Assembly (NCBI GenBank): GCA_029246545.1
Contig: JAQWMX010000013.1
Coordinates: 1-64,000 of the forward strand
Direction: 5' to 3'
Length of the DNA: 64,000 nucleotides
Source: Gammaproteobacteria bacterium
GTDB lineage: Bacteria; Pseudomonadota; Gammaproteobacteria; Pseudomonadales; Pseudohongiellaceae
In this document: positions 8,265 through 64,000 of the stretch, piece by piece
Layout of the letters: the number at the start of each line of letters is the position of its first letter
Position numbering within the stretch: the first letter of the stretch is position 1
Notes under the pieces: model-generated
Told to the model about the DNA's origin: nothing
Database searches by the model: none
Seen by the model: only the letters and a program-made list of their open reading frames with translations
Program-made: the position numbers and the translations under genes

Positions 8265-8693
8265 CTAAAAAGGTTTTACGACTACAAAAATAATAATGGC
8301 GAGTAATAAAATGACAGGTGCTTCATTGAACCATCGGTAAAATTTATGTGAACGTGTATTTTTATTCGCCTTGAAAATTTTCAAAAAGTGCCAGCACAAA
8401 ATATGATAAATAATGAGCAAGAATACACAAAACAGCTTGGCATGCATCCAGCCAGATTGCATGTAAAATTGGAAATTGGTGCTAAACAATAAGCAGCCAA
8501 AAATAACTGTTAAAACTGCCGAAGGGGTCATAATGCCCCAGAAAAGTTTTCGCTCCATTATTTTAAAACGATCGAGGCTTGTTTCATCATCTGCCATAGA
8601 ATGATAAACATAGAGTCTTGGTAAATAGAAAATTCCTGCAAACCAACAAGTCATTGCAATTAGATGGAAAGCTTTAAACCAGAGATATGCCAT
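8265..8693 (-). CDS. hemJ: HemJ-type protoporphyrinogen IX oxidase
   Basis: A 142-residue integral membrane protein with four predicted helices, thought to oxidise protoporphyrinogen IX in bacteria lacking HemG or HemY. Visible family features are the first-helix histidine (KAFHLIAMTCWFAGIFYLPRLYVYH) and the WMHAKLFCVFLLIIYH segment. It is first in the operon before hemL. The family was formerly called UPF0093. The assignment rests on motifs plus the hem context and is good, but distant CopD-like proteins share this topology. Confidence 0.85.
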   Translation of the reverse strand: MAYLWFKAFHLIAMTCWFAGIFYLPRLYVYHSMADDETSLDRFKIMERKLFWGIMTPSAVLTVIFGCLLFSTNFQFYMQSGWMHAKLFCVFLLIIYHILCWHFLKIFKANKNTRSHKFYRWFNEAPVILLLAIIIFVVVKPF

Positions 8694-59209: not shown

Positions 59210-59225
59210 TAGCTTTTCTTTTATT

Positions 59226-59256
59226 AAAAAAAAGCCCTCAATTGAGGGCTTTTTTA
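59226..59256. terminator. bidirectional terminator after fusA
   Basis: A perfect palindrome centred on CAATTG: AAAAAAGCCCTCAA then TTGAGGGCTTTTTT. The A and T runs on both sides serve fusA and the convergent PQQ gene. Confidence 0.93.
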
Positions 59257-59273
59257 TGTCTAGCTTTTCTTAT

Positions 59274-61439
59274 TTATTGCTCAGGTAATTCAAATACCCA
59301 AACTGATGAACTTGAGGTTGCTGGTAATGAAATTTCAGGTACTAATCCAGGAAAGGATGCAGCTTGAGCTCCGCCATAACCAACGACCATTGCAATATAT
59401 TGTTTACCACCGACAGCAAATGATATTGGGTTAGAGTTCGGCACATCAGAAAGTTTAACTTGCCATAATGGCTCACCAGTCATGTCATCATACGCTGTGA
59501 GGTTTCGGTCGAGCGCACCAGCAAAAATCAGACCACCAGCTGTCGCCAATATGCCAGTAGATTGAGGTGCACGTTGGCGTTCAGTCCACGACTGAGTCAT
59601 AGTCTCATTTACATTGAAAGCTTGGATATGACCATATAGACCATCACTATCTGGGCGTGGGCGAAGAGTCCAATTATACCCAGCAGATAGAGCGCCAGAA
59701 CCCAATCCCTCTCCAGTTGGAATCATGTCCATACAGACTTCTACGGCAGGGACATACATAGTTTGGGTTTCTGGGTTATAAGCGCCAGGAAGCCAACTAC
59801 GCCCACCACCTGCATGCGGACAAACCATTTTTCGTTCGCCATCTGGGTAGAGTGACATATCGACAATTTTCATGTCGGTTTCTGGGTCGACCCCAAGTAT
59901 GAAGTTTTGCAGGCCCATATCGTAAGAAAGTAGATATTCGCCAGTTACAGCATCATTGGCATCATAAAAGCCTTGCTTACCAGCAGTCATAGAGACTCGT
60001 CGGTCAGTGCCGCCTATATTGATATCCATGATAATTCGTTCAAAAATCCAATCGGCATCGAACTGATCATTATTCATATGTTGGAAATACCAGACCAGTT
60101 CACCAGTTTCAGGTCTCAAAGCCAGGGTTGCGTTGGTAAACAAAGCGTCATTTGTAATACCGGGCTGATTTATAGGGTTTACCGTTAAAGCGGTGTCATA
60201 AGTTGGTGAAGGAGCGAAATAAGCCAGGCCGGTTTCAGAGTCAAATGAGCCCGATACCCAAAAAGACCCACCATTTCTTTCATCATAGGGCACTCCATTC
60301 CAAGTATTACCACCTAATTCGTCAGGTTCTGGAATAGAATTAAAACGCCAAAGTTTTTCGCCGGTCTCTGCATCCAAACCTTGAACAAAGCCGCCTCCAG
60401 GTACAACATTTGGTTTTCGAGTCATCATTGTGCCTTGCATAACTACGCCATTTGCTACTGTTGGTCCGCCTGATATAGCACCGTCAATTTCAGTTTCCCA
60501 AACCAGGGCGCCAGTCCGCATATTGAGAGCGATAACTTTCCTGTCAGAAGTTGCTGCATATATTTTGTCATCATAAATGGAAATATTGCGCATCAGCCTG
60601 GGGTTTATACCCTCTGCTAAATTATTACTGTAATGCCAAAGTTCATCACCTGTAATCGCATTTAAAGCCATGATGTGATCACCATAACTATGCACAAACA
60701 TAACACCTTCATGAATCAATGGTGTCGATTCATTAGGTCCTGCTGGAAGCGCCAAACTCCAAGCAAGGCGAAGGTCATCAACATTATCTTTGTTGATTTG
60801 ACTCAGTGGGCTGTAACCAGTTGCGTTATGAGTTCCACGCCATGTCAACCATGATTCTGCAGGCGGGTTAGCCAGCATACTATTAGTTACATCAGAGATA
60901 TTTGCTAGAGGGCTTAGAGCTGTTTCCCATTCAGGGATCACCACACCAGGAGCAAAACCACCGGCAGGACCACCTCTTCTTCTTGCTGCTTGGCCAGAAT
61001 TCAGGGAGTCGCCTGGTACGAACAATGTTGCTAACTGAGTTGCATTTGTAGGTAAGGCATCGTCACCAGCAGGAATATCGTTTTCTTGCAGTATAAAAGC
61101 AATCAAATCGGCGTATTGCTCTCTACTCAAACTATTTGTTTGGCCAGGTGGCATTTCAGTTGTTTCTTCAAATAAGGCATCCATGCTAGCGCCAGCCCAA
61201 CGAATAGAGAAAGAAGTTCCCCTTAAAGGCGCGCCAAATTCACCATCATTTAAATTCTCGCCATGGCAAATGACACAAGATTCTCTGTAAAGTGCCTCAC
61301 CTCGCTCAGCCTGCTCAGCTGTGAAGTGTGCGGGGTCTTCAGGCAATGGAGCGAGTCCAGGTTGTGCTGTGGCACTATAAGACACACTCATAGCCATAAG
61401 AGCGCCTACTATCAGGGAATAAATTTTTCTAGTTTTCAC
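59274..61439 (-). CDS. PQQ-dependent dehydrogenase with N-terminal cytochrome c
   Basis: A periplasmic quinohaemoprotein of 721 residues. The GTG start at 61439 is chosen because AGGAG lies eight bases upstream and a clean signal peptide follows (cut near ATAQ-P); a GTG seven codons earlier is possible. A cytochrome c domain comes first: C55-V-I-C58-H59 with candidate axial M96. The eight-bladed PQQ propeller follows from about residue 195 (WLTWRGTHNATGYSPL, repeated AxTGxxxW motifs). The active-site region QFDADW places D461 and D463 two apart, as in lanthanide-type alcohol dehydrogenases. The adjacent-cysteine pair of many alcohol dehydrogenases is absent. Substrate unknown; the known quinohaemoprotein order is reversed. 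Confidence 0.85.
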   Translation of the reverse strand: MKTRKIYSLIVGALMAMSVSYSATAQPGLAPLPEDPAHFTAEQAERGEALYRESCVICHGENLNDGEFGAPLRGTSFSIRWAGASMDALFEETTEMPPGQTNSLSREQYADLIAFILQENDIPAGDDALPTNATQLATLFVPGDSLNSGQAARRRGGPAGGFAPGVVIPEWETALSPLANISDVTNSMLANPPAESWLTWRGTHNATGYSPLSQINKDNVDDLRLAWSLALPAGPNESTPLIHEGVMFVHSYGDHIMALNAITGDELWHYSNNLAEGINPRLMRNISIYDDKIYAATSDRKVIALNMRTGALVWETEIDGAISGGPTVANGVVMQGTMMTRKPNVVPGGGFVQGLDAETGEKLWRFNSIPEPDELGGNTWNGVPYDERNGGSFWVSGSFDSETGLAYFAPSPTYDTALTVNPINQPGITNDALFTNATLALRPETGELVWYFQHMNNDQFDADWIFERIIMDINIGGTDRRVSMTAGKQGFYDANDAVTGEYLLSYDMGLQNFILGVDPETDMKIVDMSLYPDGERKMVCPHAGGGRSWLPGAYNPETQTMYVPAVEVCMDMIPTGEGLGSGALSAGYNWTLRPRPDSDGLYGHIQAFNVNETMTQSWTERQRAPQSTGILATAGGLIFAGALDRNLTAYDDMTGEPLWQVKLSDVPNSNPISFAVGGKQYIAMVVGYGGAQAASFPGLVPEISLPATSSSSVWVFELPEQ

Positions 61440-61709
61440 TTGTAAAACTCCTATGTACACGATGCTTGGATTTCAGTCGAACAAGCATACCAATTCTAGG
61501 GCTTTGTTCAATATTAATCTTTTGATTCCTTTGAATTTGAACAATTCTGGCTTGATTATTTGCTCTAATGGTTGAATGATTACACCTTAATGTAATTGTG
61601 ACCACAGAAAGTAGAAGTTAACTAATAAAAAGAGTCTTAAGCGACATACTCGATTTGATCAGTTAAAGTCTAATAAAACAAAACCATGTCGATTCTCATA
61701 GGGGGAAAT

Positions 61710-62744
61710 ATGACCTTATCTAAACACTTTAAAATTATTGTGCTGAGTGCAAGCTTGACTACTTCAGGTGCTGTCTTTGCTCAACCTGGGCAAGGTAGCC
61801 TGCCTGATGCCATTCCATTTCCGATGGAATTTGAATCTTCAAGAGAACATTACGATTATTTATTGGATCATTACAAAGGTGGTGTTCAGCATGATTATCT
61901 GAGTGTGCCTAAATGGGAAGGGCTTTGGTCTTCTGCAGCCCATCAAGCAAGGAATAACATATTATTTATGGATGAAGATGATGAAATTCTTCCGGGCGTG
62001 TTAACTGATGAATATGAAGCTGCTTTTCGATATCGTCTTGACCTGGGGAATGAGGCTTTTAACGCGGGAGTGGATTATGACCGATTGACCACCTGTGAAC
62101 CAGCTGGCATCCCACGTTGGTATCGAGAGCCATATGTCCGAGAATTTATAAACACGCCGACATATTCTTTATGGCATAACGATTTAGCCAATGACACGCG
62201 ACGAATTTATATTAATCAAGAGCATCTCAATGTTGATGGGACCCATTATGCCGTTGGAGACAGTATTGGGTTTTGGGCGGAGGATGATGAACTTGGTGAT
62301 GTTTTGGTTATACATACAGTAGATATCTACCCGGGAGATTTTTTCCGTGGGATGCCGCCGACTAGTAATCAGGCCGAGACAGTAGAGGTTTGGTATGAAT
62401 GGTGGGATGCGGAAAGTGATCAAATGAAGGTAGTGGCTAATATCTATTTTTATGATGCCTTGATGCTAGAAGAGCCGCTGAATATCATTTATTCCTTTCG
62501 TCATCGTCAAGATATGGAAGATGCGGGCTTAAGAATACGCTATTGGGAATGCGCGCAAAACCAAAATACCTATCTGACTTTTGATGAAGAAGGTCGCCCG
62601 AACACGCAATACCGTTTACCAGGTGATCCAGGGTATCTTGATCCACGGGGCACGCCTGCGACTCGAAATCCAGATTTGCCTGCAGACTTAACTGGTCAGG
62701 AAAAAAGCCCTGTATTTGACGATCAATTTGATTTTGTCTTTTAG
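61710..62744 (+). CDS. DUF6152-associated periplasmic protein
   Basis: A 344-residue secreted protein (signal peptide cut near VFAQ-P) with no named function. The core TCEPAGIPRWYREPYVREF, then RRIYINQ, GDSIGFWAEDD...LVIHTV and SNQAETVEVW resembles an unnamed periplasmic family that often accompanies DUF6152 genes (C-P-G-P...EF, RRIY, G-SIG-W, S-A-E). The start follows AGGGGG; an ATG eight codons earlier is less likely. It is divergent from the PQQ dehydrogenase across a 270-base gap with no recognised control site, and followed 30 bases later by DUF6152. Confidence 0.65.
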   Translation: MTLSKHFKIIVLSASLTTSGAVFAQPGQGSLPDAIPFPMEFESSREHYDYLLDHYKGGVQHDYLSVPKWEGLWSSAAHQARNNILFMDEDDEILPGVLTDEYEAAFRYRLDLGNEAFNAGVDYDRLTTCEPAGIPRWYREPYVREFINTPTYSLWHNDLANDTRRIYINQEHLNVDGTHYAVGDSIGFWAEDDELGDVLVIHTVDIYPGDFFRGMPPTSNQAETVEVWYEWWDAESDQMKVVANIYFYDALMLEEPLNIIYSFRHRQDMEDAGLRIRYWECAQNQNTYLTFDEEGRPNTQYRLPGDPGYLDPRGTPATRNPDLPADLTGQEKSPVFDDQFDFVF

Positions 62745-62774
62745 TATAGCTATAAAAATTCGAGGAAATATTTT

Positions 62775-63248
62775 ATGAAAAATTCATTAAAAACATTATC
62801 AACTCTTACACTAGCAGCGCTAACATTTGGAGCTGTAGACCTTGCTTCTGCACATCATAGCTTTGCCATGTTTGATCGCAGTAAGGAAGAAGTCTTGTCT
62901 GGTGAGGTGGTTCGTTGGGCATTTAATAGCCCGCATGTTGCACTTTATATAAGAGATGAAGCTGGTACAATTTTCGCGTTTGAAGGTGCTGCACCACCAC
63001 GAATGATTGAATCTAGTCCATCGATGACGGGTTTTACTTTTCAACCGGGCGATCAGGTCATGGTTGTTAAATGCCCTTTACGCGATGGTAGAAACGGTGG
63101 TGCTGTTGGTTTAGTTTTAAAAGATGATATTTGGTATGACCCTAGTGACGGTGGTTGTGGCGCGGATAGCGATGCATGGCAGGATTGGTATGCCAAAGGC
63201 TATACCTCTAAGCAGGAAGCTATGGACGCTGGCGAAGAGGTGCCCTAA
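62775..63248 (+). CDS. DUF6152 family periplasmic protein
   Basis: A 157-residue secreted protein with a signal peptide (cut near LASA-H). The family opening AHHSFAMFDRSKEEVLSGEVVRWAFNSPHVALYIR, with its double histidine directly after the cleavage site, is clear; later GDQVMVVKCPLRDGRNGG is also typical. The exposed N-terminal HH could bind a metal, which is inference. Co-directional with the preceding gene and closed by a terminator. Function unknown. Confidence 0.85.
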   Translation: MKNSLKTLSTLTLAALTFGAVDLASAHHSFAMFDRSKEEVLSGEVVRWAFNSPHVALYIRDEAGTIFAFEGAAPPRMIESSPSMTGFTFQPGDQVMVVKCPLRDGRNGGAVGLVLKDDIWYDPSDGGCGADSDAWQDWYAKGYTSKQEAMDAGEEVP

Positions 63249-63265
63249 CAATTTGATTCTGTTAG

Positions 63266-63296
63266 AAAAAAGGGCTTCAATTGAAGCCCTTTTTTA
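63266..63296 (+). terminator. terminator after the DUF6152 gene
   Basis: A perfect palindrome, AAAAAAGGGCTTCAA (63266-63280) with TTGAAGCCCTTTTTT (63281-63295), ending in T6. It closely resembles the fusA terminator in layout. Confidence 0.93.
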
Positions 63297-63349
63297 TTAA
63301 TCAATAAGCAGCTTGCTAGGGTTTTACTTTTCAGGCTAGAGTTAGGCTG

Positions 63350-64000
63350 ATGTTTAACAAAACAATTTTCCGATTAAATATATTGTTCTGCAGCATTTGT
63401 ATAGCTGCTTTATCTTCTGCTGCAAATTTCACCTACGATGGTGTTCACCGGCGTGATCCAATTAGTGAGGTGGAGCGAAATACAATTGAGGCAACCGGCG
63501 AGATATTTTGCAGATCTCCAATAACAAATGATTTAAAAGCTAGCACTGGATTCTTAATCGATTTGGGTCAAATCAGCGGGGATACTATATTGATCACATC
63601 AGGTCATAGCTTTCGTGAGATAAGTGATAATGAAAATCGCACTGATTGTAACTTCAAGCCTTATGGCTCTGAGCAAAGAATCCCACTAAACAACAATGTT
63701 ACTGGAAATATTGTGCAGGAAAACCCTGCTGCATTCATTAAGAATGATTGGGGTGTGAGTATTTTGCCTCCTGACATAGGTGTTGCCAGAAACGCTATCC
63801 CAATTAGCAATAAAAGCCATGAAGAATTACATAATTTACTTCGAGCCGGTCTAGCCGAAATTAAATTCTATGGCGGGAATCAAATACCAGAACTAGGTGA
63901 AGCCCGAATACAAATTTCAGATAACTGCTCTATTTGGGAGGCAACGCCCAGAGCTATCTTAGGTGCAGGTCATTCTATTTATACAAATTGCGATTCAACC
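63350..64000 (+). CDS. trypsin-like serine protease, cut by the window end
   Basis: An open frame from ATG 63350 to the last base, 217 codons so far. A signal peptide (about 1-24, cut near SSAA-N) is followed by a chymotrypsin-fold region: GEIFCRS, STGFLIDLG, ILITSGHSF with candidate catalytic H86, and KNDWGVSIL with D133. The nucleophile region should begin just where the window stops (TNCDST, often continuing to GNSGSP). Cysteines at 54, 100 and further along fit disulphide bonding. Family call is good; activity cannot be judged without the serine. Confidence 0.7.
   Translation, partial: MFNKTIFRLNILFCSICIAALSSAANFTYDGVHRRDPISEVERNTIEATGEIFCRSPITNDLKASTGFLIDLGQISGDTILITSGHSFREISDNENRTDCNFKPYGSEQRIPLNNNVTGNIVQENPAAFIKNDWGVSILPPDIGVARNAIPISNKSHEELHNLLRAGLAEIKFYGGNQIPELGEARIQISDNCSIWEATPRAILGAGHSIYTNCDST

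Follow-up and report, generated by a model that had tools for sequence, protein, structure and literature searches.

The window analyzed here is a 64,000-nucleotide stretch of DNA that forms part of contig C10 in a 2.25-Mb genome of 97% completeness, presumably from a marine member of the Pseudohongiellaceae. Near its end it carries three genes, which encode a propeller dehydrogenase of the pyrroloquinoline quinone (PQQ) type with an N-terminal cytochrome c domain, a secreted protein without a Pfam family (called F here), and a member of the family DUF6152 (Table 1). The open reading frame (ORF) list and Pfam searches confirmed that the three genes are real and have the domain order and divergent layout described in a first-pass annotation made from the sequence alone. 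Its statement that the two genes divergent from the dehydrogenase encode secreted, undescribed proteins was also supported, and signal-peptide-like N-termini were seen by eye on the window proteins. Congeners carry all three proteins, with identities of 63–85% for the dehydrogenase, 71–88% for F, and 64–87% for DUF6152, so these are not chance reading frames. The F and DUF6152 genes are 30 bp apart. Two congeners begin F at an ATG equivalent to position 61710, which is likely the true F start, as judged from this comparison. The dehydrogenase may start at the GTG at 61460 or at an in-frame GTG at 61439. The locus sits between fusA and rpsJ (gene names assigned by eye), a point absent from the first-pass annotation.

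Table 1. Features at the locus, in coordinates of the window
Feature	Position	Strand	Details
Propeller dehydrogenase (PQQ type) with N-terminal cytochrome c domain	59274..61460	-	728 aa; ORF list, Pfam
F protein gene	61686..62744	+	352 aa; ORF list, secreted, without Pfam family
DUF6152 gene	62775..63248	+	157 aa; predicted OB fold
His-His, predicted mature N-terminus, residues 27-28	62853..62858	+	invariant 79/79
Pro-His, residues 53-54	62931..62936	+	invariant 79/79
Cytochrome c (CBB3-type) domain, residues 50-123, CVICH 62-66	61092..61313	-	Pfam
PQQ-type propeller, residues 204-727	59280..60851	-	Pfam, PDB matches, alignment
A/T-flanked hairpin, terminator-like in both directions, between fusA and dehydrogenase	59228..59255	.	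z -6.1
Terminator-like hairpin behind the F-DUF6152 pair	63266..63295	.	z -5.5
Intergenic region between the divergent units, presumed to hold their promoters	61461..61685	.	

F and DUF6152 form a tight unit, which is sometimes a single polypeptide. Counts of the two families rest on domain-trimmed profiles. The host genome holds 19 DUF6152 copies (18–25 in the other four congeners) and 31 members of the large F family. Fifteen of the 19 DUF6152 genes lie within 1 kb of an F gene or are fused to one, where 0.7 would be expected; 12 of them adjoin an F gene and three are fused to F. Similarly, among 16 named loci found with the window F, DUF6152 stands directly behind F in 13. In the phylum, 42 of 398 sampled genomes carry DUF6152. 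From 60 matches outside the host genome, 43 proteins in 40 loci were read, the remaining 17 being mostly lower-scoring or partial. F was present at 20 of the 21 loci without an HHGW-type DUF6152 (the F-type loci) and at none of the 19 HHGW loci (Fisher 3e-10, with loci treated as independent, although just 11 genomes supplied the 21 F-type loci, so that these lack independence; the 19 HHGW loci were drawn from 19 genomes). At one locus, a single 570-aa protein fuses DUF6152, F, and the small membrane protein family DUF6644 (L143:2466-4178). Neighbors of F-DUF6152 pairs in various genomes include a carboxylesterase, an esterase, Abhydrolase_10, AtuA, and a ring hydroxylase.

Several side observations concern the pair. 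One of the four remaining DUF6152 genes of the host genome (C13 near 36808) adjoins a stretch of 27 residues that shares 89% identity with the end of F and is, from its sequence, a decayed F partner. Metallo-beta-lactamase-fold genes recur beside F-DUF6152 pairs at three loci (L096, L097, and L098; Pfam was run on two). A metagenome-assembled genome (MAG) titled Klebsiella pneumoniae includes a contig (L119) on which F and DUF6152 are those of the host's bacterial family, and the record is probably mislabeled. The relatives found in the named collection are uncultured gammaproteobacterial MAGs, UBA5109 among them.

The window's DUF6152 protein scored 50.2 bits against PF19649, above the gathering score of 27, indicating membership, and this was its sole Pfam match at E values up to 0.1. 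The CopC model gave no match, and CopC membership was rejected for that reason. A full-text literature search, outside which most subscription papers and supplements lie, returned no paper for DUF6152, DUF6644, or their Pfam accessions. The AlphaFold2 model of the mature protein reached a pLDDT (predicted local distance difference test) of 94.5 and a pTM (predicted template modeling) score of 0.89. When it was compared with known structures, 497 of 998 chains had a Z score of at least 5 (top 8.2), and the matches listed were mostly oligonucleotide/oligosaccharide-binding (OB) proteins. The predicted fold is thus OB, with a five-stranded barrel topology. CusF, CopC, and lytic polysaccharide monooxygenases (LPMOs) were absent from the matches listed, which carries no weight either way.

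A first alignment covered 23 proteins, some of them just 17% identical to that of the window, and only four of its columns were invariant, namely those of a His-His and a Pro-His. This pattern held in a set of 79 distinct proteins, made up of the host family and the 40 phylum loci and chosen by profile score rather than by motif, in which H1, H2, P27, and H28 (mature numbering) were invariant in all 79. The His-His is placed at the predicted signal-peptide cleavage point, behind alanine (71), serine (5), or glycine (3), and it is by this predicted cleavage that the mature protein would begin with histidine. A free N-terminal histidine chelates transition metals in any fold. From this conservation, the His-His and Pro-His residues constitute a candidate N-terminal-histidine metal site. 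They might instead be conserved for a non-metal reason, such as capping of the OB fold or recognition of a partner, given that a structural role can also account for prolines and histidines that never vary. However, the histidines lie exactly at the predicted cleavage point with alanine, serine, or glycine before them in 79 of 79 proteins, and the partners are CopD-like, and we consider this explanation improbable.

The same His-His start was seen in DUF6152 genes on IMG/VR contigs classed as viral (L163-L168), for example at L163:3914-4303, where the gene lies near a homing-endonuclease-like gene and adjoins a gene matching PHROGs of unknown function. These are possibly phage-carried copies; a search of phage records with the viral-contig DUF6152 gave no match.

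Among known systems, CopC, YcnI/DUF1775, and LPMOs resemble DUF6152 in a predicted mature N-terminal histidine, a further invariant histidine, and a CopD-like neighbor in one subgroup. They differ in that DUF6152 has a predicted OB fold, whereas those proteins are beta-sandwiches, and in that DUF6152 has no Pfam match to their families. CcmE, a haem chaperone, and CusF, a copper chaperone, are periplasmic proteins of the OB fold that is predicted for DUF6152 (the Foldseek match to CcmE 1lm0 had a TMt of 0.56). However, no sequence match between them and DUF6152 was seen, and their ligand residues are placed elsewhere than the DUF6152 histidines. The same N-terminal-histidine reasoning led others to YcnI/DUF1775 (PMC8424229) and to DUF4198, DUF6702, and the anglerases Ang-1/2 (PMC12537917). 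The latter, called signal-strapped metalloproteins, are likewise secreted, of unknown function, and found in a HupE/UreJ_2 context. They belong to other Pfam families, and their N-terminal histidine is given as 79% and 65% conserved, compared with 79 of 79 proteins in DUF6152 (PMC12537917). A full-text search of the main text of that paper, with its supplements outside the search, did not return DUF6152.

F gave no Pfam, NCBIfam, or PDB match, only a very weak PHROGs match (E 0.031), and a plasmid search gave no match. In its structural model (pLDDT 73.8), a strand and two helices are followed by barrel strands, and nearly all leading structure matches were fatty-acid- or retinoid-binding proteins (best E 5e-3, highest Z 8.0). 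The features conserved across 77 distinct aligned domains are two cysteines, positions with R, G, W, E, and D, and a GxW motif, whose glycine was found in 52 and whose tryptophan in 51 of the 53 domains with letters there. An N-terminal GxW is, we take it, a signature of the calycin superfamily. F is accordingly predicted, on its model, to be a secreted barrel like those of fatty-acid-binding proteins (FABPs) and calycins. In the model it would share with these the order of strand, helices, and barrel strands, and it has the GxW motif, but it differs in an identity of ~10%, extra N- and C-terminal parts, a conserved cysteine pair, and being bacterial and secreted.

For the dehydrogenase, Pfam placed a PQQ propeller at residues 204-510 (206.3 bits) and Cytochrome_CBB3 at residues 50-123 (39.1 bits). 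A CxxCH cytochrome c domain thus lies within the same chain as the propeller, as in quinohaemoproteins. The CVICH motif occupies residues 62-66 when counted from the GTG at 61460; its earlier placement at residues 55-59 holds from the GTG at 61439. The first-pass annotation had regarded the N-terminal position of the cytochrome as exceptional. However, 46 of the 57 genomes searched contain relatives with E values of 1e-30 or lower, many of which align through the cytochrome domain, so that, on these alignments, an N-terminal cytochrome is common among relatives in the host's bacterial family. In polyvinyl alcohol dehydrogenase, too, the haem domain comes first. That enzyme is listed as a c-type PQQ enzyme in PMC6472588, and PMC4133262 describes an N-terminal cytochrome, of b-type, in the Coprinopsis PQQ pyranose dehydrogenase. 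The nearest solved enzymes were ADH-IIG (22vi), 4cvb, and sorbose dehydrogenase (4mh1). They share the propeller only, with alignments spanning approximately residues 183-727 (E 7e-74 to 4e-71) that begin after the N-terminal cytochrome. The first-pass annotation had held that clustering of the dehydrogenase with enzymes of known substrate that lack DUF6152 neighbors would count against it; no enzyme of known substrate was found close to the dehydrogenase. TIGR03075 (methanol/ethanol PQQ dehydrogenases) matched at 329 bits, below its curated 480.05, and the second NCBIfam match, TIGR04528 (acido-empty-quinoprotein group A), at 272.9 bits, below its curated 650.

The company that such dehydrogenases keep with the pair recurs at several scales. 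The host genome encodes seven propeller dehydrogenases, and for four of them a DUF6152 or F gene is no more than 5 kb away (P 0.013, at a limit picked after the data had been seen). Among the phylum loci, a propeller gene was found at five of the 21 F-type and none of the 19 HHGW loci; three of these five lack a haem motif, one has a C-terminal and one an N-terminal cytochrome. At L130 and L133, F-DUF6152 stands alongside other propeller proteins. When the sequence was followed outward from three of the five loci, all in one family of another class, each of the three genomes showed a cluster that joins DUF6152 with an N-cytochrome dehydrogenase sharing 42-44% identity with that of the window over ~700 residues. 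Each of these clusters also holds three further propeller genes, several F genes, and two DUF6644-like genes, and the one cluster checked for it contains a carboxylesterase. A HupE/UreJ_2 permease was seen in the two clusters checked (L172:6171-6881 and L174:15241-16026), and it would begin with HDV after a signal-like stretch. An accidental neighborhood of the dehydrogenase was considered and rejected because propeller company was recurrent at the phylum loci.

The exact trio, in contrast, is adjacent in only three of the five congeners. Two congeners (G002 and G004) have the same arrangement as the window. In a third (G003), the dehydrogenase remains at the fusA-rpsJ site, as does the 305-aa gene that comes after the three genes and has no Pfam match, but the F-DUF6152 pair is missing there. 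In the fourth (G001), the dehydrogenase (63% identity) is at another place, where the 15 kb read contained neither DUF6152 nor F, and it lies on a different contig from the pair. Since the other-class clusters hold all the kinds of genes while the congener trio is kept in only three of five, the link of the dehydrogenase to the pair appears, from these gene neighborhoods, to be old but loose. The first-pass annotation had proposed that the three genes are one small oxidation system and had held that finding them apart in most relatives would count against it. Read literally, its co-occurrence check goes that way, with the trio in three of five congeners and DUF6152 or F in five of 16 regions around related N-cytochrome dehydrogenases. 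A fixed trio with a single substrate is thus very unlikely: it would agree with the adjacent, divergent genes of three congeners and with three other-class genomes that each have the three kinds together in a cluster, but not with G001 and G003, nor with F-DUF6152 pairs that mostly lack this dehydrogenase. What stood is the association at a wider scale, seen in the other-class clusters, L130, and L133. The annotation pointed to the right neighbors for a weak reason, and its interpretation is partly supported.

DUF6644 is the other recurrent partner, being beside 18 of the 19 HHGW-type DUF6152 genes and at eight of the 21 other loci. Of six DUF6644 proteins tested, one exceeds the CopD cut-off (36.1 vs 32.1 bits), and a second gives a weak CopD match. 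These partners raise the alternative that DUF6152 serves metal acquisition rather than catalysis. It would capture copper or nickel and pass it to DUF6644/CopD-like or HupE/UreJ-like membrane proteins, and F would bind a hydrophobic metal chelate. CopC and YcnI are thought to act so with CopD; precedents are YcnI adjoining CopD (PMC8424229) and N-terminal-histidine proteins with HupE/UreJ_2 (PMC12537917). In line with this alternative, the HHGW loci pair DUF6152 with DUF6644 in the absence of F, and HupE/UreJ_2 occurs in the wider cluster. However, 19 DUF6152 and 31 F genes in 2.25 Mb, together with esterase and hydroxylase neighbors, suggest many substrates rather than one metal, and the host genome has no DUF6644 gene near DUF6152. 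By analogy and on these counts, we rate metal acquisition alone as unlikely. Two observations touch the same families: the window encodes a 142-aa membrane protein, HemJ-like by eye, that is matched by the DUF6644 profile (8265-8693, minus strand), and one DUF6152 protein (L105:5676-6260) has a C-terminal membrane-like segment and nearby genes that, by eye, presumably encode nitrile hydratase subunits.

We give about an even chance to a modular periplasmic system that oxidizes hydrophobic compounds and combines the dehydrogenase, a metal-binding DUF6152, and a ligand-binding F barrel. Electrons from the propeller dehydrogenase would travel via the cytochrome c at its own N-terminus. DUF6152 may bind a transition metal, with copper as the first candidate and nickel or zinc as further possibilities. 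The ligands would be the N-terminal amine, His1 and/or His2, and the histidine of Pro-His. The F barrel would hold a hydrophobic ligand, and dehydrogenases, esterases, and CopD-like membrane proteins would join the F-DUF6152 unit in differing combinations. We favor metal binding because of the invariant H1, H2, P27, and H28, the DUF6644/CopD neighbors, the triple fusion, and HupE/UreJ_2 in the wider cluster; the dehydrogenase is included because of the other-class clusters, the five of 21 F-type loci, and the four of seven host genes within 5 kb. For DUF6152, the invariant mature His-His and the CopD-like partner offer metal binding as a first function open to test. That DUF6152 is coupled to propeller dehydrogenases and to a barrel family without a name suggests a possible route for the periplasmic oxidation of hydrophobic compounds. 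A bolder version, which we think quite unlikely, is that DUF6152 and F are a new class of secreted copper enzyme. In it, a histidine-brace-like site on an OB fold would oxidize a hydrophobic molecule presented by the FABP-like barrel, and the haem-bearing dehydrogenase would take the next oxidation step or supply electrons. If true, this would be a general tool for periplasmic oxidation of lipids or terpenoids, present in 18–25 DUF6152 copies per genome in a marine genus.

Several points weigh against the modular oxidation system. With regard to gene company, 11 of the 16 regions around related dehydrogenases hold neither DUF6152 nor F (one is a contig of 4.1 kb), the 5-kb limit was chosen afterwards, and the exact trio is not kept in two congeners. 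The three other-class clusters come from one family, were fetched because of DUF6152, and amount to roughly one observation; propeller genes abound in those genomes (13-21 matches), and some company is expected. The F model is of moderate quality (pLDDT 73.8), and a Z score near 8 can be chance. The lack of DUF6644 near DUF6152 in the host also counts here.

The activity of the dehydrogenase is itself in doubt from its sequence. In a 14-protein alignment, the window clade lacks the vicinal cysteine pair and the Glu and Asn positions, which two paralogues of the same genome keep (a more distant member, G016, keeps Asn), and it retains the Trp, Asp, and Lys positions. We take the altered Glu and Asn to be the usual calcium ligands of classical Ca-PQQ alcohol dehydrogenases, which also have the vicinal cysteine pair, the kept Asp to be catalytic, and the Trp to stack on PQQ. 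PqqC was undetected in all five genus genomes by profile search (it reached the cut-off in five of 33 genomes searched) and PqqE was below the cut-off in the host, so PQQ would be either imported or not used. PQQ import is described as widespread among Gram-negative bacteria (PMC12124388); if the dehydrogenase holds PQQ, a putative cofactor here, it is probably imported. The protein could therefore be a quinoprotein-like propeller without PQQ, with a binding or structural role, while the cytochrome does the redox work or none. The altered positions, the PqqC and PqqE results, and the match to the acido-empty-quinoprotein model fit this explanation. Nevertheless, we hold it to be somewhat unlikely, as the window clade retains Trp, Asp, and Lys, as the solved proteins nearest to the dehydrogenase carry the names of alcohol and sorbose dehydrogenases and, as the alignments read, also lack the Glu, and as PQQ import is widespread.

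With regard to the flanks of the locus, a pattern scanner for terminators returned neither of the two hairpins listed in Table 1. A promoter scan found no promoter-like site in the divergent intergenic region, and overall such sites were no commoner than in shuffled sequences. The interval between fusA and rpsJ is usually occupied by tuf. Here, from 59210 to 64000 of the window and on to approximately 64447 of contig C10, it holds genes unrelated to translation, and the same site is used in three congeners.

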